NCBI GenBank assembly: GCA_022826185.1
Contig: JAJDVH010000138.1
Location: forward strand, 1 to 35,790
Source: Alphaproteobacteria bacterium
GTDB taxonomy: Bacteria > Pseudomonadota > Alphaproteobacteria > Bin95
Direction of reading: 5' to 3'
DNA: 35,790 nt
How positions within the stretch are numbered: the stretch's first letter is position 1; each line of letters begins with the position of its first letter. The notes beneath the pieces are model-generated. The model did not search any database and was not told the origin of the DNA. It worked only from the letters and a program-made list of their open reading frames with translations. Shown piece after piece: positions 3,663 through 35,790 of this stretch. The position numbers were made by a program, and so were the translations under genes.

Positions 3663-5207
3663 ATGCCATCGTGCAAATCTGGACCGAAGCCCGGCTATCT
3701 TCTGGGTCCATTCGGACCGTTCATTCAGGAGTTCGCGACCTACCTCGGCGACGCGGGGGTTGGCCCGAGTCAACGCGGCAAGCTTTGGCGTGTCGCCGAG
3801 GATGTCCTGACCTGGCTGCAGCGCGACGGTACGGCGATCGACGCAGTCGATGACGCCGTGTTGCGGCGATTCAGGGATGAGTACTGCGAGGAGTTTCTAA
3901 AGGGTCGCGAACACCACAGACCTTCTCAGATTCGTGCGACGCTGTACATGAATTGCGCGCGCTGGCTCGTTCGATTCGCCGAGCACAGGGGTGACGCCCG
4001 ACGTCCTGGAGATCTCGCCGACGGCTTGCGCCACCTCGATGAGTACCTCGCCCAGTTGGGTGCCGAAGGTTATACGGTCCGGACCCTGACGGGCCGCCGC
4101 TACACTTGCCACCACTTCCTGACCTGGCTCCACCAGTGCCGCATCCCGCTGGCGGAGGTGAATGCCGAGACCCTTGAGCGGTTCATCGACCATGACTGTG
4201 TATGCCCGTGGAGGATGCGCAAGATAGAGAAGCTGAAGTCCCGGCATAGCGGTTCAATCAAGTCGTTTCTGCGGTTCCTCTCCACTCGCGGGGTGATGCC
4301 GGACGCTTTCCCGGTCGAAGATTCCGGCGCCGAGATGCCGCTGTTCCGTTCGTGGCTCCGGCGCCATCGCGGAATCGGCGATGTCACCATTGGCAAGTAT
4401 GTGAGAACCCTCTCCTTTGTCTTGCCCGACCTGGGCAGCGACCCTCAGCTCTACGACGCGGCTCTCATCAGGGGTGTCATGCTGAGCCGCTTCGCCAAGG
4501 TCGCCCCGGAATACGCCCGGGAAATGACCAAAGCCCTACGCATGTATCTACGCTTCCTGGCCTCGAATGGCGCGTGTCGAGCGGAACTCGTCAACGCGGT
4601 GCCGTCAGTGCCGCAGGCGCGCCTCGCGACCCTGCCACGTTACATCCCAACCGATGATATCGAACGGCTGATCGCGTCGTGCGACCTGACGAGAGCGGTG
4701 GGAGTGCGCGACCGGGCAGTCCTGCTGTTGCTGGCCAGGCTGGGGCTCCGTGGAGGCGACATCTGCGCGCTTCGGCTGGACGACATCGATTGGGCGAAGG
4801 CTCTCGTCAAGGTCGGCGGGAAGTCGAAAAGAACCGTTCAGTTGCCGCTTCCCCAGGACGCTGGAGACGCGATCCTGGCCTATATCGAGAAGGCGCGTCC
4901 GCGAGTCGATGAAGACAAGGTGTTCCTGCGCGTGCCGGCCCCGCATGTGCCATTCCCCTCTTCGAACGCCGTCACCCACATCGTGTGTCGCGCTCTGAAC
5001 CGAACTGGCATGCACGACGCCCACCCCCGGGGAGCCCAGCTCTTCCGGCACTCCACGGCGACCGGCCTGCTGCGGTCCGGGGCCTCGCTGGAAACCGTCG
5101 GCACCCTGCTGAGGCATCGGCTGCCGAGTACCACCGCGATCTACGCCAAGGTCAATGTCCCCATGCTCCAGGAAGTGGCGCAGCCCTGGGTGGGAGACGC
5201 CCGATGA
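3663..5207 (+). CDS. RIT tyrosine recombinase A
   Basis: First and longest (514 aa) of the three recombinases. The N-terminal ~330 residues hold SAM-like core-binding helices, apparently two such blocks, then the catalytic domain: Arg in LGLRGGD, Lys in the GGKSKR turn, the H-P-R-G...FRHST motif, LLRHR, and the nucleophile Tyr in TAIYAKVN. ATG at 3663 is preceded by AGAGGAGCGAGG. The stop overlaps the start of recombinase B (ATGA at 5204-5207), indicating coupled translation. Such trios are thought to act as a unit, each protein contacting a different site or doing a different step; which one cleaves which strand is not known from sequence. Confidence 0.92.
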   Translation: MPSCKSGPKPGYLLGPFGPFIQEFATYLGDAGVGPSQRGKLWRVAEDVLTWLQRDGTAIDAVDDAVLRRFRDEYCEEFLKGREHHRPSQIRATLYMNCARWLVRFAEHRGDARRPGDLADGLRHLDEYLAQLGAEGYTVRTLTGRRYTCHHFLTWLHQCRIPLAEVNAETLERFIDHDCVCPWRMRKIEKLKSRHSGSIKSFLRFLSTRGVMPDAFPVEDSGAEMPLFRSWLRRHRGIGDVTIGKYVRTLSFVLPDLGSDPQLYDAALIRGVMLSRFAKVAPEYAREMTKALRMYLRFLASNGACRAELVNAVPSVPQARLATLPRYIPTDDIERLIASCDLTRAVGVRDRAVLLLLARLGLRGGDICALRLDDIDWAKALVKVGGKSKRTVQLPLPQDAGDAILAYIEKARPRVDEDKVFLRVPAPHVPFPSSNAVTHIVCRALNRTGMHDAHPRGAQLFRHSTATGLLRSGASLETVGTLLRHRLPSTTAIYAKVNVPMLQEVAQPWVGDAR

Positions 5208-6127
5208 CCATGATCGACAACGTGGAACGTTACCTCACCTTCAAGCGCCATCTGGGATACAAGTTCGACCAGGCCGCCCGCATCCTGCGAGCCTTCGCCG
5301 ACGAGACCGACGCCGGTTGCGATGAGTTGATCCGCGCCATCGCCGTTATCGACTGGTCCCGGAAGGCAGGCACGGCCGGGCAGGCGCAGATCCGGCTCCG
5401 GGTAGTTGCTGACTTCGCCGCTTGGCTGCACGCCGAAGACCAACGCCACGAAGTTCCATCGCGAGATGCCCTCGGCCGAGTGCCGGTGCGAAGATCCTCC
5501 CCTCATCTCCTGAGCCTGGGCCAAGTCAAGGAGATCATGGACGCAGCGCTGTTGATGAAGAGCACGGGCCCACTCAACCGGTACACCTACCACTACATGA
5601 TCGGATTGCTCGCCACCACCGGGCTGCGGCTGTCGGAGGCGCTCGCTCTGAAGCTGAACGACATTACTGCCGACGGGCTGGTGGTCCGGGCTTCGAAGCT
5701 CGGAAAATCGAGACTGGTTCCGCTTCATGACAGCACCAGCAAGGCGCTGGACCGTTATCTCGAAATCAGGATGCGCATGGGCGGCTCCGACGAGCACCTG
5801 TTCGTTCTCTCGAGCGGCAAACCCCCGCATCACTCCACTCTATCGAAGATCTTCCTCAGGCTCGCCAGGCAAATCGGCCACCGTGGCGGTCCCGGGGAGC
5901 CCGGCTCTCGATTGCACGACTTGCGGCACGGATTCGCCACGCGTTCGCTTGAGAACGCGGTCGTAGCCGATCGCGACAGCGTCAGCCGACACGTTCTGGC
6001 GCTGTCCACTTATCTGGGGCACGTCAACATGGCCTCCACCTACTGGTATCTGGAGGCCACGCCGGTCCTGCTCCGCGGGATCGCCCGAGCTGCGGAAGCC
6101 ACACATGCAGGGAGGGCGACCCGATGA
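5204..6127 (+). CDS. RIT tyrosine recombinase B
   Basis: Second recombinase, 307 aa. The start is the ATG overlapping the stop of A; an upstream in-frame extension is not needed and lacks a ribosome site. The N-terminal ~110 residues are the core-binding domain (VERYLTFKRHLGYKFD...). Catalytic residues are visible as Arg in TTGLRLSEA, Lys in SKLGKSR, H-D-L-R-H-G-F-A, YLGH, and the nucleophile Tyr in the STYWYLE segment. The C-terminal tail after the tyrosine is short. It overlaps recombinase C by ATGA at 6124-6127. Confidence 0.92.
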   Translation: MTMIDNVERYLTFKRHLGYKFDQAARILRAFADETDAGCDELIRAIAVIDWSRKAGTAGQAQIRLRVVADFAAWLHAEDQRHEVPSRDALGRVPVRRSSPHLLSLGQVKEIMDAALLMKSTGPLNRYTYHYMIGLLATTGLRLSEALALKLNDITADGLVVRASKLGKSRLVPLHDSTSKALDRYLEIRMRMGGSDEHLFVLSSGKPPHHSTLSKIFLRLARQIGHRGGPGEPGSRLHDLRHGFATRSLENAVVADRDSVSRHVLALSTYLGHVNMASTYWYLEATPVLLRGIARAAEATHAGRATR

Positions 6128-7125
6128 CCGAGCTCGCGCCCTATATCAGCGCGTTCCTTGGGGAGCATCTACCCCGCGATCGCGGTGCCAGCCGCCACAC
6201 GATCGAGAGTTACGCCGTGAGCTTCACTCAGCTCGTCTGTTTTGCGGAAGCCAGATACGGCGTTCGTCCCTGCAAGATCATGATCGAACAGTTGACGGCC
6301 GATCTGATCCTCGACTTCCTGGAATATCTGGAGCGTGATCGGGGAGCCACAATCGGGACACGCAACGTACGGTTGGCTGCGTTCAAATCCTTCTTCCGAT
6401 ACCTCGAGTACAGGGTTCCATCCTGTCTCGCCCTGGCCGGTCAGGTCCACGCGATCCCACTCAAGCGGCGAAACGAGCCAGTGGTCGATTATCTCGATCA
6501 TGACGAGGTACAGGCCCTGCTGGACGCGCCCGATCCGGGGACGCGTTCCGGGATACGCGATCGCGCAATGCTGCACCTTGCGTACGCCGCCGGGCTGCGC
6601 GTGTCGGAGTTGGTTGGAATCGCATGCAACGATGTCGAACAACCCGGCCTCGACGCCGTCCGCATCCATGGAAAGGGGCGTCGAGAACGCTCGTTGCCGC
6701 TGTGGACGCAAACGCGATCCGTCATCCGGGACTGGCTGGCAATCCGTCCCGACGGATCAAGCGACCATCTGTTCCTCAACGCCCGCGGCGTCGGCATGAC
6801 GCGACACGGCTTCGCTCACCGTCTGAAGCTACATGCTGCGACGGCGCGGCGAGCCGTACCATCCATCGCCACCAAGCGAATTAGCCCGCATGTGCTTCGA
6901 CACGCCTGCGCGATCCACACCCTGGAGGCCACGCGCGACATCCGCAAAGTGTCTCTCTGGCTGGGTCATGCAAGCGTTCAGAGCACGGAGATCTACCTCC
7001 GGGCCGATCCCGTGGACAAGCTGGACGTCCTTGCTGCGCGGCAACCACCGTCGGTGCGGAAGGGAGTCTTCATGGGTGCGACCGACCGTCTGATGGCGAT
7101 ATTGCACGACGCGAAGCGCCAATAG
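6124..7125 (+). CDS. RIT tyrosine recombinase C
   Basis: Third recombinase, 333 aa, XerC/D-like in layout. Core-binding domain at ~1-100 (SRHTIESYAVSFTQLVCFAE), then catalytic Arg in AAGLRVSEL, Lys in HGKGRRER, HVLRHACA, LGHASVQST and the nucleophile Tyr in TEIYLRAD. About 45 residues follow the tyrosine, more than usual for XerC. The stop codon TAG (7123-7125) lies inside the right inverted repeat, so gene and terminus have co-evolved with almost no spacer. Confidence 0.92.
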   Translation: MTELAPYISAFLGEHLPRDRGASRHTIESYAVSFTQLVCFAEARYGVRPCKIMIEQLTADLILDFLEYLERDRGATIGTRNVRLAAFKSFFRYLEYRVPSCLALAGQVHAIPLKRRNEPVVDYLDHDEVQALLDAPDPGTRSGIRDRAMLHLAYAAGLRVSELVGIACNDVEQPGLDAVRIHGKGRRERSLPLWTQTRSVIRDWLAIRPDGSSDHLFLNARGVGMTRHGFAHRLKLHAATARRAVPSIATKRISPHVLRHACAIHTLEATRDIRKVSLWLGHASVQSTEIYLRADPVDKLDVLAARQPPSVRKGVFMGATDRLMAILHDAKRQ

Positions 7126-29919: not shown

Positions 29920-30058
29920 GCCGTATCCCTGCACCGGACGGGGGTAGCCTTCAAGCAGGCACGGACCGCATATCGCCGTGGAGGTGGAGAGGAGCGCGCG
30001 GGGAGCGAAGCCGCTGACGGAGAGGGAGCGGCGGCCAACGCAACCGGGGAGATCGGAC

Positions 30059-30595
30059 ATGGCGACATTGCGATATGCGGGGATCGGGGCGCGGGCGACG
30101 CCGGCCGGTGTGCTGTCCGACATGGGCGTCATGGCGGGATGGCTGGCGCGGACCGGCTGGCATCTGTCTTCCGGCGGCGCGGACGGGGCCGATGCTGCGT
30201 TTGCGGCGGGAGCCCCGGCGGAGCAGCGGACGGTATGGCTGCCGTGGCGGGGCTATAACGGGCATCGGGGTCCGGACTGCCGGGTGCTGTCGGCGGCGGC
30301 GATGGCGGCATGCATGGAGATCGCGCAGCCCCTGCATCCGGCGTGGGAGCGGTGTTCGCCGGCCGTCCGCAAGCTGCATGCCCGGAACGCGGCGGTGCTG
30401 TTGGGCGAGGCGCTGGACCGGCCGGTGGATGCGGTCGTGTGCTGGAGCGAACGCGGCGCGGTAACCGGCGGCACGGGGATGGCCATCCGCATCGCCCAGG
30501 CCCGCGGCGTCCCGGTGCTGAACCTGGGGTCGATGACGCCGCGTGCGGTCTGCGAGCGCCTGGCCGCGATCCGCCGCGCCGTCCATCCGTCGTAG
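30059..30595 (+). CDS. SLOG-fold protein (DprA/YoqJ-like)
   Basis: 178 aa, single domain. The Rossmann-like SLOG signature is clear: R-Y-A-G-I-G-A-R-A-T-P at the N-terminus, S-S-G-G-A-D-G-A-D-A-A-F (~37-48), LPWRGYN, and G-A-V-T-G-G-T-G-M-A near residue 138. This fold binds nucleotides or NAD-like ligands; DprA loads RecA on single-stranded DNA, but phage- and plasmid-type short forms like this one are uncharacterised. ATG 30059 has GGGGAGATC upstream. It is divergent from the membrane protein and leads the gene group with SSB and the macro-NADAR protein. Confidence 0.78.
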   Translation: MATLRYAGIGARATPAGVLSDMGVMAGWLARTGWHLSSGGADGADAAFAAGAPAEQRTVWLPWRGYNGHRGPDCRVLSAAAMAACMEIAQPLHPAWERCSPAVRKLHARNAAVLLGEALDRPVDAVVCWSERGAVTGGTGMAIRIAQARGVPVLNLGSMTPRAVCERLAAIRRAVHPS

Positions 30596-30722
30596 AGGAG
30601 GAGGCGAGCGCCTGTCGGGCGAGTGTCCGGCAGGGCGGAGGGAGTGGGTCCCCCGCGCCGATGCCGGATCGGTGTCCGGCACAGGTTGCCGGACCGGGCA
30701 ACGGCAGAGGAGGTCCCGCCCC

Positions 30723-30938
30723 ATGTTCCATCCCGATACATCCCTCGACCGGCTGGCCGAGCTCGGCATCGACCCGGCGGCGGTCCGCGAGGTCGTCGAG
30801 GACGAACGCGCGATCCGCTGTCCCGACCGCGGCGCCGTCTATCCCGCATACGGCTTCGCGAGCCTCACCCCGGAACCGGGCCTGGCGGAGCCGCCGGAGC
30901 CCTGGGACCCGGCGTCGTCGCTCCCTCCGGCCGGTTAG
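30723..30938 (+). CDS. Small hypothetical protein, 71 aa
   Basis: MFHPDTSLDRLAELGIDPAA... with GAGGAGG nine bases upstream. Helical N-terminus (VREVVEDERAIRC), then P-D-R-G-A-V-Y-P-A-Y-G-F and a Pro-rich tail. Acidic, cytoplasmic, not recognised. It lies between the SLOG protein and SSB genes, all on the same strand. Confidence 0.5.
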   Translation: MFHPDTSLDRLAELGIDPAAVREVVEDERAIRCPDRGAVYPAYGFASLTPEPGLAEPPEPWDPASSLPPAG

Positions 30939-31048
30939 AGGTGGAGGAGGGCTTGAAGAGGTTGAACGGTCGGGGGGTCGGGGGAGTGGCCCCGGCCCCG
31001 GTCGTTCGCAACCCATCGTCATCATCCAGACCATGAAGGGGAATCGTC

Positions 31049-31504
31049 ATGGCATTCGGACTCAACCGCGTGGAACTGATCGGCCGCCTCGGCGCCGACG
31101 TGACCGTCAACCACCTGATGAGCGGCGGGCGCGTCGCCAACCTCTCGATCGCGACCGACGAGTCGTACATCAACAAGCAGACCGGCGAGAAGGTCGACAA
31201 GACCGAGTGGCACCGGGCGGTCACGTTCCAGGAGGGGCTGATCGACATGCTGGAGAAGCACGCCATCAAGGGCCGGCTGGTCTATATCGACGGCAAGCTC
31301 CAGACCCGCCGCTGGTCGAAGCCGGGCGAGGAGGGCGACCGGTTCTCGACCGAGATCCTGCTGGTCCCGGGCGGCCGGGTGCAGTTCCTCGACAAGCCGA
31401 ACGGCAACGGCGCCGGCATGCAGCCCGACCCGGACGCGGTGGGCGACACCGGCGCCGCTCCGGCCTACGCGCCCTCCGACCTGGACGATCAGATCCCGTT
31501 CTGA
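31049..31504 (+). CDS. ssb: Single-stranded DNA-binding protein
   Basis: 151 aa. N-terminal OB fold with the expected order N-R-V-E-L-I-G-R-L-G, S-G-G-R-V-A-N-L-S-I-A-T, TEWHRAVTF, KGRLVYIDGKLQTRRW, and a short variable tail ending D-D-Q-I-P-F, the acidic tip that recruits replication and repair proteins. Size and tail are as in chromosomal SSB, so it should be functional. It may protect element DNA during transfer and recombination. GAAGGGGAA precedes the start, and a strong intrinsic terminator follows 25 bases after the stop. Confidence 0.96.
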   Translation: MAFGLNRVELIGRLGADVTVNHLMSGGRVANLSIATDESYINKQTGEKVDKTEWHRAVTFQEGLIDMLEKHAIKGRLVYIDGKLQTRRWSKPGEEGDRFSTEILLVPGGRVQFLDKPNGNGAGMQPDPDAVGDTGAAPAYAPSDLDDQIPF

Positions 31505-31528
31505 GCGACCATTCCTCCCTCCCGCCTC

Positions 31529-31561
31529 GGGGGCCGGCGCTTCGCGTCGGTCCCCTTTTTT
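31529..31561 (+). terminator. Rho-independent terminator after ssb
   Basis: An 11-pair stem (31529-31539 with 31545-31555; two G-U pairs), a CTTCG pentaloop, and six T residues at 31556-31561. This is the clearest intrinsic terminator in the window and should end the SLOG-SSB transcript, making the macro-NADAR gene the start of a new unit. Confidence 0.88.
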
Positions 31562-31703
31562 GCAGCCGGGCCGGAGTCCTTCCCCCCATGCCCGTCCGGC
31601 GCGCGCCGCCGGAGCCGGAGAGGAGCGCCGGTGGGGCGTTCCGTTACCCGGGAGGAGTGCCGGCTCGGCCTTCCCCGATCTTCCCGCACCAGGAGCACCG
31701 CCC

Positions 31704-32786
31704 ATGATCCGTTTCACCCGCGGCGACCTCTTCGCGTCCGGCTGCCAGGCCCTCGTCAACCCTGTCAACTGTGTTGGCGTGATGGGCCGGGGGCTCGCCC
31801 TCCAGTTCCGGCATCGCTTCCCGGCCAACTACGAGGCCTACCGCGACGCCTGCGCGCAGCGCGCGGTCCGGCCCGGGCGCTGCCTCGTCTTCGACGCCGG
31901 CGCCGGGCCGGCGCGGTTCGTGGTCAACCTCCCGACGAAGCGCCACTGGCGCGACCGCAGCCGCATCGAGGACATCGCCGCCGGTCTCGACGACCTGGCC
32001 CTCATCCTGCGCCGCCGCGCCATCGCCTCCGTCGCCATCCCGCCGCTCGGCTGCGGCCTGGGCGGACTGCCCTGGCCCGCCGTCCGCTCGCTGCTGCTCG
32101 ACCGCCTCGCGCCCTGCGCGGACGCCTCGATCGTCATCTTCGAGCCCGGCGGACCGGAGCGGAGGCGCGCTTGCAGCGGGGCGCAGCGCGGCAGGGCCGG
32201 AGGGAGCCCGCCGCCCGCAACGGAGGATGACGCCATGCGTATCTACAACCGCGACGAGGTTTGCCCGTTCCGCTTCACCCGCGAGATTTGGGGCGAGTTC
32301 AGCAACTTCGCGCCGCTGGCCGCGCCGATCGCCGCCGGCCCGTGGACGTTTGCGACGTCCGAGCACTTGTACCAGGCGGCGAAGTTCGGCGCCGCCCCGG
32401 CGGTGCAGCGCCGGATCGCCGGCGCGCCGACGGCGCGCGAGGCCGCCGCCATCGGCCGCGGCACAGCCGCCGGCCTGGACCCGCGCTGGACCGAGCAGCG
32501 GGTGAACGTCATGCGCTGGGTGCTGCGCATGAAGCGCGAGGCCAACGCCGCTGCGATCGACGCCGCGCTGGCGCGCAGCGGCGAGCGCGCGATCGTGGAG
32601 GTCTCGACCCGCGACCCCTGGTGGGGCGCGAAGCCGGACGGCGACCGCTACCGCGGCGCCAACGTGCTGGGCCGGCTCTGGATGGAGCTCCGCCAGCAGG
32701 CCCGCGACGGCGATCCCGCCGCGCGCGCCGCCGCCTGGACCGGGCGCATCCGCGTCGGGCGGCTCGCCGATGCGCCCCGCGCCTGA
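31704..32786 (+). CDS. DarG-type macrodomain fused to a NADAR domain
   Basis: 360 aa. Residues 1-150 are a macrodomain of the DarG/TARG1 type: ALVNPVNCVGVMGRGLAL, N75-L-P-T-K79-R-H-W (the Lys matches the catalytic one of DarG) and P-P-L-G-C-G-L-G-G-L. DarG removes ADP-ribose from thymidine in DNA. A 28-residue Arg/Gly/Pro-rich linker leads to a NADAR domain (~178-345): EFSNFAPL, T-S-E-H-L-Y-Q-A-A-K-F, R-D-P-W-W-G and GANVLGRLWMELR. NADAR proteins remove ADP-ribose from guanine bases. No DarT toxin is in view. The linker DNA contains GGAGG and an in-frame ATG at 32235, so NADAR may also be made alone. Start ATG 31704 has AGGAG upstream. Confidence 0.85.
   Translation: MIRFTRGDLFASGCQALVNPVNCVGVMGRGLALQFRHRFPANYEAYRDACAQRAVRPGRCLVFDAGAGPARFVVNLPTKRHWRDRSRIEDIAAGLDDLALILRRRAIASVAIPPLGCGLGGLPWPAVRSLLLDRLAPCADASIVIFEPGGPERRRACSGAQRGRAGGSPPPATEDDAMRIYNRDEVCPFRFTREIWGEFSNFAPLAAPIAAGPWTFATSEHLYQAAKFGAAPAVQRRIAGAPTAREAAAIGRGTAAGLDPRWTEQRVNVMRWVLRMKREANAAAIDAALARSGERAIVEVSTRDPWWGAKPDGDRYRGANVLGRLWMELRQQARDGDPAARAAAWTGRIRVGRLADAPRA
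32222..32237 (+). promoter_or_regulatory. Internal ribosome site and start for NADAR alone
   Basis: GGAGG at 32222-32226, then ATG at 32235, in frame with the macro-NADAR protein and directly before its NADAR domain (MRIYNRDEVCPF). It would give a separate 183-aa NADAR protein. The sequence before it looks like an ordinary intergenic spacer that has lost its stop codon. Confidence 0.5.
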
Positions 32787-32928
32787 CCGGCGCGCGCTCC
32801 GCCCGCCCGGCCCGAAGCCGTCCGGGCTCCGCGCCCGTGCTTCGCTCGGGCCGTTCGCTTTTCCGCGCCGACCGGAGGCGGAGGCCGGCCGGTACCGGGC
32901 GTCCCGCATGGCTTGAAGGAGGTCCCGC

Positions 32929-34035
32929 ATGCAGCACGAACCGTCTCCCGCCGCCGCCGTCGCCGCCGCGCTTGCCGCGCGCACCGAGGCGGTCTGCCGG
33001 CAATATCTGCCGCACGGCCGCCGGCAGGGCCGCTACTGGGTCTGCGGCGACCTCGACGGCGCTCGCGGGCGCTCGCTCTTCGTCCGCCTCTCCGGCTCGG
33101 GCAAGCCCGGCGGCTGGACGGATGCGGCAACGGGCCAGCACGGCGACCTGCTCGACCTCATCCGCTACCGCATCAACGCGCCGACGCTGCGCGCGGCGCT
33201 CGACGAGGCGCGGCGCTTCCTCGCCTTGCCGGCGGCCCCGGATCGCGATCCGGAGGACTGCGTTCCGGACGCCCCGGACGCGCCCTATGACGCGACCGAG
33301 GCGGCGCGGCGCCTGTGGCGGCGCTGCCGCTCCATCGACGGCAGCCATGCCGAGCGCTATCTGCTCGCGCGCGGGCTCGCGCGCTGTCGCTTCGCGGCGC
33401 TGCGCTTCCATCCCTCGCTTCGCTACCGCGATGGCTCGGCGGTGCGCCGCTTCCCGGCGCTGGTCGCCGCCGTCACCGGCGGCGATGGCCGCCTGCTCGG
33501 CGTGCATCGCACCTGGCTCGATCCGCGCCGGCCCGCCAAGGCGGGCGTCGCGCTGCCGCGCAAGGCGCTCGGACGCATTCGCGGCCTCGCCGTGCGCTTC
33601 GGCGCGCCTGCCGGCGGCCTCACTCCGCTCGTCGTCGGCGAGGGCATCGAGACGGTGCTCTCCCTGGTGACCGCCGTCCCGGAGATCCGCGCGGCGGCCG
33701 CGCTGTCGGCCGGGAGCCTCGGCGCGTTCGCGCCGCCGCCCGGCACGGCCCGCCTCGTCATCGCCCGCGACAATGACGAGGACGGCGCGCTCGCTGCCGA
33801 GCGCCTCGCCCGGCGCTGCGCGCAGGCGGGCGTCGCCGCCACCGTCATCGTGCCCGTCGGCAACGACTTCAACGACGACCTCGTCGATCTGGGCGCCGCC
33901 GCGCTGCGCGCCCGCTTCGCGCCGCTGTTCCGCGCCAGAGCCCGCCCGGCGGTTGCCGGAGGAGAAGAAAAGCGGGGGGCCGGGCGAGCCGACCCGAGGA
34001 GAGGAGGGAGCCGATGGATGCCGTCATCAACCTGA
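32929..34035 (+). CDS. Toprim-domain protein (plasmid primase-like)
   Basis: 368 aa. N-terminal ~110 residues (EAVCRQYLPHGRRQGRYWVCGDLDG...GKPGGWTDAATGQHGDLLDLI) match the zinc-finger-like/DUF7146-type module that precedes Toprim in plasmid primase-helicase relatives, although the CHC2 zinc cysteines are not complete. The Toprim domain covers ~230-340: L-V-V-G-E-G-I-E-T holds the catalytic Glu, I-A-R-D-N-D-E-D-G the Asp pair, and G-N-D-F-N-D-D follows. It probably makes primers or cuts DNA during replication of the element. No helicase domain is attached. GAAGGAGG precedes the start; the 3' end overlaps the DUF4326 gene by 22 bases. Confidence 0.85.
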   Translation: MQHEPSPAAAVAAALAARTEAVCRQYLPHGRRQGRYWVCGDLDGARGRSLFVRLSGSGKPGGWTDAATGQHGDLLDLIRYRINAPTLRAALDEARRFLALPAAPDRDPEDCVPDAPDAPYDATEAARRLWRRCRSIDGSHAERYLLARGLARCRFAALRFHPSLRYRDGSAVRRFPALVAAVTGGDGRLLGVHRTWLDPRRPAKAGVALPRKALGRIRGLAVRFGAPAGGLTPLVVGEGIETVLSLVTAVPEIRAAAALSAGSLGAFAPPPGTARLVIARDNDEDGALAAERLARRCAQAGVAATVIVPVGNDFNDDLVDLGAAALRARFAPLFRARARPAVAGGEEKRGAGRADPRRGGSRWMPSST

Positions 34036-34349
34036 AGCGCGAACCGAGGCTGCGCGAGGCGTTCGAACATGCGCTTATCGTGAACAACACCGTGCTGGTC
34101 GACCGCCGCACGAAATGGGGGAACCCCTGGCGTGTCGGCCAGGACGGCACGCGCGAGGAGGTCATCGCCCGCTACCGCGCCGATCTCTGGCGCCGCATCC
34201 GCGTGGGCGAGGTGTCCCTGGAAGAGCTCGCGGAGCTGGACGGGTGCTGGCTGGCCTGCTGGTGCGAACCGCTGCCCTGCCATGGGAACGTGCTGGCGCG
34301 TGCGGCAACCTGGGCGTCTGGGCAGCTGACGGAGCGGGCAGGTGCGTGA
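34014..34349 (+). CDS. DUF4326-family protein
   Basis: 111 aa with the family signature: K-W-G-N-P-W (~35-40), R-E-E-V-I-A-R-Y-R-A-D-L, and the C-terminal L-A-C-W-C-E-P-L-P-C-H-G-N-V-L motif with Cys and His that could bind metal. Function unknown; these proteins often travel with phage and plasmid nucleotide-metabolism genes. The start overlaps the Toprim gene and has its own GGAGGGAG. It sits two genes after the macro-NADAR protein. Confidence 0.8.
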   Translation: MDAVINLKREPRLREAFEHALIVNNTVLVDRRTKWGNPWRVGQDGTREEVIARYRADLWRRIRVGEVSLEELAELDGCWLACWCEPLPCHGNVLARAATWASGQLTERAGA

Positions 34350-34647
34350 TGCGGCCGGGTATGTGCGATGCCTTCGGCCCGGGCTATCCGCTCATATCTC
34401 CGGTCGCTGGCGCTCCCTCCGAAACCGCTCCTATCCCTATCGCCTTCGGTCGCAAGCTCCCTGCGCGCTCCGCTTGCAAGCATGGCGGCTAGGTCCGGGG
34501 GAGCGGTTCGGAGGCCGTGCCGCGCCGCGACGCCAATGGGGTCCGTGCGGGTGGAGAGAATTGGCCAACCGACGTGCTGTCCCATTGTGCCACACGTGCT
34601 CGCGCCAGCAACCCTGAAGGGTCCTCCGGTCGCTGCGCTCCCTGCGG
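34350..34647. other. Intergenic stretch with short repeats
   Basis: About 300 bases with no convincing gene. A 47-codon frame begins on the DUF4326 stop (TGATG, 34347-34351) and ends at 34492, but it runs through repeat-like DNA: CTCCGGTCGCTG-GCGCTCCCT near 34398 recurs, one base shorter, near 34624, and CTCCGAAACCGCTCC is followed by its near reverse complement GGAGCGGTTCGGAG near 34500. The content looks like palindromic intergenic repeats rather than coding DNA. Confidence 0.4.
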
Positions 34648-34815
34648 CCTGGGCAAGAAGCTCTAGAGGGGCGGAGTGGTGCGGAAAGTAGCCGACCGTG
34701 AAGATCGCGTGGCAGAGGCCGAGCGCGTCCTGCAACGGCGGTGCGAACGCGATCTTCCGCACCAAGATTCGGCGACTTTCCGCACCACTCCGCCCCAAGA
34801 GCTTCTAAGCCCAGG
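34648..34815. repeat. 168-nt long imperfect palindrome (MITE-like or structured RNA)
   Basis: Outer arms CCTGGGC (34648-34654) and GCCCAGG (34809-34815); next AGAAGCTCT (34656-34664) with AGAGCTTCT (34798-34806); then a 22-base perfect block at 34668-34689 with its complement at 34776-34797; then GCCGA with TCGGC; and an inner GAAGATCGCGT (34700-34710) with ACGCGATCTTC (34747-34757) around a 36-base loop. No open frame of note. It could be a miniature transposable element lacking a transposase, or a folded RNA in the leader of the DUF2493 gene 82 bases downstream. Confidence 0.7.
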
Positions 34816-34897
34816 TGCTTCCCCTGCGCGCGCGTGAGCCAAAGAGCCATCACATCGGCGCACAACGCTCCGGTGCTTGCAACAGGAGACAATCGTC

Positions 34898-35790
34898 ATG
34901 AACATCATCGAGAACATCGACACCATCGAGACCGCCGGGCAGTCCGCCACCGCGACCGTCTGCGAGAACGCCGCCCTCTACGGCGCGACCCCCGAGCGGG
35001 ACGAGTTCGACACCCGCGAAGTCTGGGACGCCGACGACGCCACCGCCGCGGTGCTGGAGTCCTTCCGCATCCTCGCCGAGGGCGTCGGCCCGGACGGAAC
35101 ACAGCTCGCCGACGAGCGCGAGGGCCTGCTCTGGGGCTTCGTCTACATGCTCGACGCACAGACCAACCGCCTCGACCGGGCGGCGGACAAGCTGATGCCG
35201 GACCTCCGCGACCTCCAGCGCGCCCAGGACGGCACCGAGATCAAGTCGCTGGAGCTGGAGATGACCACCCACCGGGCGCAGTGCCTCACCGACCGCCGCG
35301 ACGCCTTCGAGACCATGCGCGACGCCGCCGCCGTGCAGTACCGCGAGACCACCGGCGAGGTCTGGCGTCCGAGGCGCGGCAGCCACGTCTCGCAGACCGG
35401 CACGCTGACCAGTGCGGCCATCGACGCCCGCGACTACCAGCGGGCGAGGAAGGACCGCGAGACCATGGCGCACCTGCCGCAGGGAACGCTGGTCGCCATC
35501 GCCGGCGGCAAGGACGTCGCCGACCCCGCCGCGGTGATCGCCAGGCTCGACCAGGCGCGCGCCAAGTACAGCGACATCGTGATCGTCCACGGCGGCGGCC
35601 CCGGCGTCGAACGGATCGCCGCGCGCTGGGCCGAGCGGAACGGCGTCCACCAGGTCGTCTGCAAGCCGGACTGGGACCGCCACGGCAGGGCCGCCCCGTT
35701 CCGCCGCAACGAGGAGCTGCTGAACCTCCTGCCCAAGGGCGTCATCGCGTTCCCCGGCTCCGGCATCACCGAGAACCTGATCGACCGCGC
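34898..35790 (+). CDS. DUF2493 (SLOG-fold) protein, incomplete at window end
   Basis: At least 297 codons; the frame is still open at the last base. Start ATG 34898 has CAGGAGAC upstream. Residues ~1-190 are an N-terminal helical region (EVWDADDATAAVLESFRILAEG, ...WGFVYMLDAQTNRLDRA, ...LELEMTTHRAQC). From ~195 the DUF2493 domain begins: G-T-L-V-A-I-A-G-G-K-D, then D-I-V-I-V-H-G-G-G-P-G-V-E-R-I-A-A-R-W-A, Q-V-V-C-K-P-D-W, R-R-N-E-E-L-L and I-A-F-P-G-S-G-I-T. This is the YAcAr/SLOG type thought to bind a nucleotide or ADP-ribose-like ligand. Such long DUF2493 proteins are typical plasmid and integrative-element genes. Confidence 0.88.
   Translation, partial: MNIIENIDTIETAGQSATATVCENAALYGATPERDEFDTREVWDADDATAAVLESFRILAEGVGPDGTQLADEREGLLWGFVYMLDAQTNRLDRAADKLMPDLRDLQRAQDGTEIKSLELEMTTHRAQCLTDRRDAFETMRDAAAVQYRETTGEVWRPRRGSHVSQTGTLTSAAIDARDYQRARKDRETMAHLPQGTLVAIAGGKDVADPAAVIARLDQARAKYSDIVIVHGGGPGVERIAARWAERNGVHQVVCKPDWDRHGRAAPFRRNEELLNLLPKGVIAFPGSGITENLIDR

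Follow-up and report, generated by a model that had tools for sequence, protein, structure and literature searches.

A DarG-type macrodomain without DarT, joined in frame to a NADAR domain in an ssb-containing gene cassette of a putative conjugative element

The window analysed here, a stretch of 35,790 nucleotides forming contig JAJDVH010000138.1 of an alphaproteobacterial genome (GCA_022826185.1, G000 below), carries a DarG-type macrodomain and a NADAR domain in a single uninterrupted frame of 360 amino acids (31704-32786, +). The macrodomain belongs to a clade of DarG-type domains without a DarT partner, it was inserted between an ssb and a nadar gene, and it lies in a cassette with genes for a single-stranded DNA-binding protein (SSB), SLOG proteins and a primase-like protein. 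In our judgement the chances are evenly balanced that it is a captured DarG domain in a conjugative cassette that handles single-stranded DNA (ssDNA), where it would erase base adducts on the DNA of the element. A wider proposal is more tentative: conjugative elements may carry a cassette for direct-reversal base repair on ssDNA that combines SSB, primase and a DprA-like protein with a DarG-derived macrodomain, NADAR and AlkB, in some cases as fusions, and that protects incoming DNA against base-modifying immunity. The macrodomain may then be a former antitoxin domain that has parted from its toxin and taken on general counter-defence.

The original prediction, made from the DNA letters, had placed a macrodomain and a NADAR domain in one frame and had named their motifs, and both statements were confirmed (Table 1). 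The macrodomain contains NLPTKRHW at residues 75-82, and its catalytic Lys79 aligned to Lys80 of T. aquaticus DarG; the NADAR half contains EHLYQAAKF (residues 220-228) and WWG (306-308). The assignment of the macrodomain to the DarG type, also made there, agreed with the profile searches, the structural comparison and the tree described below. The PADLOC DarG profile matched at 3.2e-64, covering only profile positions 1-151 of 329, and the NCBIfam DarG model scored 208 bits against a cut-off of 250, with a match ending at position 154 of 338. Thus, the C-terminal DarT-binding domain is missing from the window protein, and stand-alone macrodomain relatives are likewise about 150 amino acids long. 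The best relatives in the PDB were DarG chains (143 and 136 bits), compared with 28-29 bits for TARG1 chains, which rules out the TARG1 group.

The absence of a DarT partner, predicted for the window, extends to the whole genome. DarT (PF14487) had no match in the 4.48-Mb G000 assembly, rated 100% complete, and none in G014, where a 148-kb contig carries the same cassette (locus L001). A darT gene lying just outside the window, whose contig (C50) ends at position 35790, was therefore rejected. DarT was present in three of the 21 sister or element-bearing genomes, and in two of these, G003 and G021, it adjoins a DarG-type macrodomain; real DarTG systems thus exist in the same genus, while the element cassette has none. 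In a survey of the class, with coordinates matched by inspection of tables, DarT adjoined 16 of 17 DarG-length macrodomain loci. Neither an adjacent DarT nor the DarT-binding domain accompanied any of the 20 element copies of the macrodomain. In a tree of 41 macrodomains these 20 copies grouped together (support 96/84) in a single clade within the DarT-linked DarG proteins; the tree was rooted at the midpoint, so the direction of change rests on the paraphyly of the DarT-linked group. The simplest reading is that the element macrodomain is a DarG catalytic domain, probably captured by a conjugative element, that would have lost both DarT and the DarT-binding half.

A mobile carrier had also been anticipated, and the L001 contig bears this out. 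The cassette lies there at about 113.8-120.2 kb. The same contig encodes the F-type transfer proteins TraD, TraG, TraU and TraC, and a relaxase gene is located at 127.9-128.8 kb, about 8 kb from the cassette on the opposite strand; no match to the TraI_2 relaxase was found, the relaxase being of the TrwC type. The transfer genes and the relaxase make the element conjugative by gene content. TrwC relaxase matches numbered 11 in G000 and 17 in G014, suggesting that both hosts are loaded with conjugative elements. All genomes are metagenome assemblies, and the host is probably sponge-associated, judging from bin names. The window encodes a RadC protein. By eye we also named a ParB-like protein, a large SNO-type helicase/methylase and, at the left edge, an integrase-like open reading frame (ORF). 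Positions 3663-7125 contain, again by eye, three tyrosine-recombinase-like ORFs in a row on the same strand, which resemble a recombinase trio.

The comparison of relatives showed how the two domains came to share a frame. L001, an independent assembly, has the same joined frame at 90% identity and is the only close relative that does, which rules out an assembly or frameshift artefact. Other genome relatives of the ORF were mostly matched through the NADAR half alone. Stand-alone nadar genes in L002, L003, L004 and L006 start at an ATG equivalent to window position 32235, and in the last three ssb lies just upstream. The stretch encoding residues 151-177 corresponds to the nadar leader of L002 and L003, including a GGAGG ribosome-binding site. 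L003 is an empty ssb-nadar site without a macrodomain: window 31400-31638 matched L003 6725-6976 at 87%, and window 32146-32300 matched L003 6939-7093 at 95%. An imperfect repeat of about 38 bp (31600-31638 and 32146-32184) brackets the insert, and both copies resemble L003 6939-6976; it is a possible trace of the insertion route.

Stand-alone macrodomain relatives have their own stop directly after the fold, such as IVIHEPVHR-stop in L096, and a TAA stop separates the macrodomain gene from nadar in L116. The window and L001 have lost this stop at one common junction, and because the junction is shared, their joined frames represent one event. For such a joint the junction must fall in frame once, which has a chance of about 1 in 3, and the local guanine-cytosine content makes stops rare, so a shared frame is not improbable. 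We revise the original view of the single frame as a meaningful feature: in the window a macrodomain gene sits as an insertion between ssb and nadar and has lost its stop codon, and relatives keep the genes apart. The joined frame is real and best read as a run-on, in which a macrodomain gene inserted behind ssb would run into the NADAR leader after a chance-like stop loss. The expected products would be the two-domain protein and free NADAR from its own start.

It is improbable, in our view, that selection favoured the joined protein as a bifunctional enzyme, one that clears both thymine and guanine ADP-ribose and benefits from the fusion itself. The frame has stayed open in L001 at a synonymous divergence (dS) of about 0.24, both halves are under purifying selection (nonsynonymous to synonymous ratio, dN/dS, 0.24 for the macrodomain and 0.22 for NADAR; changes in the linker are too few for judgement), and fusion recurs in the clade, with AlkB in six loci and as SLOG-DUF4326-NADAR in one. 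These points favour a selected fusion. However, the joined frames go back to one event, the linker is an old leader with its Shine-Dalgarno sequence and ATG intact, stand-alone versions are commoner, and no Macro-NADAR match covering at least 80% of the query was found in plasmids or phages. In addition, the structure model of the joined protein had a mean predicted local distance difference test score (pLDDT) of 48.8, with about 24 in the linker; since the model is poor, we make no claim on domain packing. The fusion as a designed chimera is weakly supported.

The NADAR domain is of the YbiA type. Its Glu220, Lys227, Glu299, Asp304 and Trp307, the equivalents of active-site residues, were invariant across 11 relatives, and their spacing matches E43, K50, E125, D130 and W133 of the P. 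nicotianae NADAR (PMC11543638). Motif spacing and alignment with YbiA place Glu299 where the DarT1-linked type has an aspartate (D171 in E. coli C7; PMC11543638). This marker assigns the domain to the YbiA type and rules out a DarT1-type (BC4488) antitoxin. The NCBIfam model of a NADAR anti-phage system, for which the cut-off is 240 bits, reached 128 bits. The source of the system behind that model (NF053876, DS32_2) was not identified in our literature search, and NADAR domains are mentioned among validated defence proteins (PMC13092281).

The gene order in L001 is SLOG1, ssb, AlkB, macro, nadar, Toprim, DUF4326 and YAcAr, and the window is identical except that it lacks AlkB (PF13532 at 1.7e-21 in the cassette); in L096 the order is ssb, nadar, AlkB, macro, Toprim and DUF4326. 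The SSB, AlkB, SLOG, primase and DUF4326 partners had not figured in the original prediction. Within 3 kb on the same strand, the 20 element macrodomains were accompanied by SSB in 14 cases, AlkB in 10, Toprim in 10 and SLOG1 in 9, and more rarely by YAcAr (7), NADAR (5), DUF4326 (4) and DarT (0), counts that are not independent (the six Macro-AlkB and four SSB-Macro-SSB loci are related sets) and to that extent temper our proposal. The start of SLOG1 was moved from 29978 to 30059 after comparison with relatives. Its model had a pLDDT of 82, and its nearest PDB folds were DprA, with a weak E value of 0.01; the fold is closer to DprA than to ThsA, both being weak. SLOG1 also resembles phage proteins annotated as DprA-like (E down to 5e-14), and the homologous part of the L047 protein weakly matched DprA (PF02481).

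Table 1. Features of the macrodomain-NADAR frame and its cassette in the window
Feature	Coordinates	Strand	Remarks
SLOG1, DprA-like SLOG protein	30059..30595	+	no Pfam family
ssb, single-stranded DNA-binding protein	31049..31504	+	Pfam SSB 1.9e-21
Terminator-like hairpin 3' of ssb	31529..31555	+	12 pairs then T6; consensus match only
Insert relative to the L003 empty site, carrying the macrodomain	31639..32145	+	about 507 bp; left edge uncertain (31609-31638)
Shine-Dalgarno AGGAG for macrodomain	31691-31695	+	
DarG-type macrodomain, residues 1-150	31704..32153	+	Pfam Macro 4.2e-21 at residues 18-129
Codon of catalytic Lys79	31938-31940	+	
Linker, residues 151-177	32154..32234	+	former 5' leader of nadar
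Shine-Dalgarno GGAGG for nadar	32222-32226	+	eight bases 5' of ATG
YbiA-type NADAR, residues 178-336	32235..32786	+	own ATG at 32235 (residue 178); Pfam NADAR 4.1e-20 at 195-332
DUF7146-Toprim primase-like protein	32929..34035	+	Pfam DUF7146 4.6e-33, Toprim_3 3e-21
DUF4326 protein	34014..34349	+	Pfam DUF4326 1.3e-23; no solved relative
YAcAr (YspA-like SLOG) protein	34877..35788	+	Pfam YAcAr 1.2e-23; runs off contig end (35790)

The SLOG, Macro, NADAR and DUF4326 domain set co-occurs within window positions 30059-35788. This composition bears on the main rival explanation, in which the cassette would bind or destroy soluble signals derived from nicotinamide adenine dinucleotide, made by TIR, Sir2 or similar immunity of the recipient, and would thereby counter signalling and not repair DNA. 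Removal of soluble ADP-ribose signals has been predicted for viral sets of these four domains (PMC9503650, PMC7824862). L047 also joins Macro, SLOG, DUF4326 and NADAR in one protein, and other loci join YAcAr, NADAR and SLOG. On the other hand, the macrodomain falls specifically in the DarG group and retains its lysine, the commonest partners are SSB, AlkB and primase, and the resemblance of SLOG1, weak as it is, is to DprA more than to ThsA. We also know of no role of AlkB on ADP-ribose signals. On balance, we consider the soluble-signal explanation rather unlikely. The AlkB, SSB and primase partners favour nucleic acid and the YAcAr and DUF4326 partners favour nucleotides, and the cassette may serve both roles.

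A role in RNA repair or metabolite detoxification is, in our estimation, very improbable. NADAR would then act on a riboflavin intermediate or as an N-glycosidase on RNA guanosine, AlkB on transfer RNA and the macrodomain on RNA-linked ADP-ribose. In agreement with this, NADAR matched TIGR02464 at 71.7 bits, just below the cut-off of 73.7, NADARs reverse guanosine ADP-ribosylation in RNA (PMC11833690), and the solved chains closest to the cassette AlkB are ALKBH8 and ALKBH6. However, the SSB, primase and DprA-like partners act on DNA, and we recognised neither a riboflavin gene nor an RNA-ligase gene within the cassette.

DarT2 modifies thymidine at N3 and DarT1 modifies guanosine, both in ssDNA, and DarG macrodomains and NADARs reverse these modifications (PMC11543638, PMC7003065). 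A cassette with SSB, a DprA-like SLOG protein, a Toprim primase and up to three direct base-restoring enzymes would be suited to ssDNA. The macrodomain is predicted to remove ADP-ribose from thymine N3, NADAR from guanine, and AlkB, in the relatives, to repair alkylated bases. During entry of the element into a cell, or during its replication in single-stranded form, the enzymes may remove base adducts left by ADP-ribosyltransferases of the recipient or of a rival that act on ssDNA, such as DarT, and the ssDNA of the element would stay readable in recipients with such defences. AlkB enzymes work on the Watson-Crick face of bases, the same face as the thymine N3 adducts of DarT2. In plasmids, the leading regions with anti-defence genes show an enrichment of SSB genes (PMC11541004).

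Several points weigh against this proposal. Both enzyme activities, ssDNA as the substrate and the protective role are predictions from sequence. The original prediction had proposed immunity against a host or rival DarT system, which is plausible given DarT in the three sister or element-bearing genomes; against this, YbiA-type and phage NADARs failed to protect cells from DarT1, yet hydrolysed guanine-ADP-ribose in vitro (PMC11125620). YAcAr and DUF4326 have been predicted to act on ADP-ribose derivatives and not on DNA (PMC9503650), and the similarity of AlkB to ALKBH8 and ALKBH6 leaves RNA open. A leading-region position of the cassette is unproven, the origin of transfer (oriT) not having been located. 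The terminator-like hairpin between ssb and the macrodomain makes co-transcription uncertain, and the two may be on separate transcripts; its sequence recurs in L003 and L001, and the region has 2 such hairpins against 1.2 expected by chance. Binning of metagenome assemblies could also misplace a contig.

The element macrodomain shares the group of the DarG of DarTG2 systems (N-F/L-P-T-K-R/K-H-W with the catalytic lysine) and nests among its DarT-linked members, but at 150 amino acids it has neither DarT nor the C-terminal DarT-binding domain and is found with SSB, AlkB, NADAR and primase. The window NADAR belongs to the same fold family as that of DarT1-NADAR systems (DarTG1, BC4488 type), with the conserved active-site Glu and Lys, but it has Glu299 for the marker Asp and no DarT1 nearby. 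It shares the Glu at the E125 position and the E43, K50, D130 and W133 spacing with E. coli YbiA and the P. nicotianae NADAR (PMC11543638), but unlike them it lies in an element cassette and is joined in frame to a macrodomain. The viral networks have the same four domain types, neighbouring or fused, whereas the window set is on a bacterial conjugative element with SSB, primase and, in relatives, AlkB, the last being absent from the published sets as far as the accessible sections go (PMC9503650, PMC7824862). As in the anti-defence islands of plasmid leading regions, SSB stands beside candidate counter-defence genes, all on one strand; the text describing those islands, however, contains no NADAR, DarT or ADP-ribosylation (PMC11541004).

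Earlier work on viruses has already described both tandem Macro-NADAR proteins and the network of four domains. What is new, as far as our searches reach, is a DarG clade that occurs on conjugative elements without DarT, the association of this clade with SSB and AlkB, and the single frame that joins Macro and AlkB. No publication treating DarG and AlkB together was found in the literature search, and we know of no earlier pairing of ADP-ribose removal with AlkB. If the proposal is true, the ability to erase DNA ADP-ribosylation is shared by phages and conjugative elements, and DarT-type defences target incoming conjugating DNA besides phages. It would also answer a question left open in PMC11125620, namely what physiological role orphan DarG-type macrodomains and YbiA-type NADARs play.

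Domain fusions recur among the relatives. Macro-AlkB forms one frame of 358 amino acids in six loci of three genomes (L128-L133, for example L128:8005-9081 and L130:2832-3905), preceded by SLOG1 and followed by ssb and Toprim where the contig reaches, and its AlkB part may have its own internal start. No full-length Macro-AlkB was found in 72,556 plasmids, 50,697 phages, IMG/VR contigs or 399 genomes of the phylum, and the search for close relatives in viral contigs gave matches at the macrodomain level only. The Macro-SLOG-DUF4326-NADAR protein of a same-genus genome (L047:6552-9698; L032:106-3150) has 1,014 amino acids from its ATG and 1,049 from stop to stop, with a long C-terminal region, and is followed by a Toprim gene. 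In G006, another same-genus genome, YAcAr, YAcAr, NADAR and SLOG are joined in L050:4858-10455 (1,866 amino acids) and L051:4327-9183 (1,619 amino acids). Finally, in L059, L060, L061 and L062, from three same-genus genomes, the macrodomain gene follows one ssb and precedes further ssb genes in an SSB-Macro-SSB arrangement without NADAR or AlkB.
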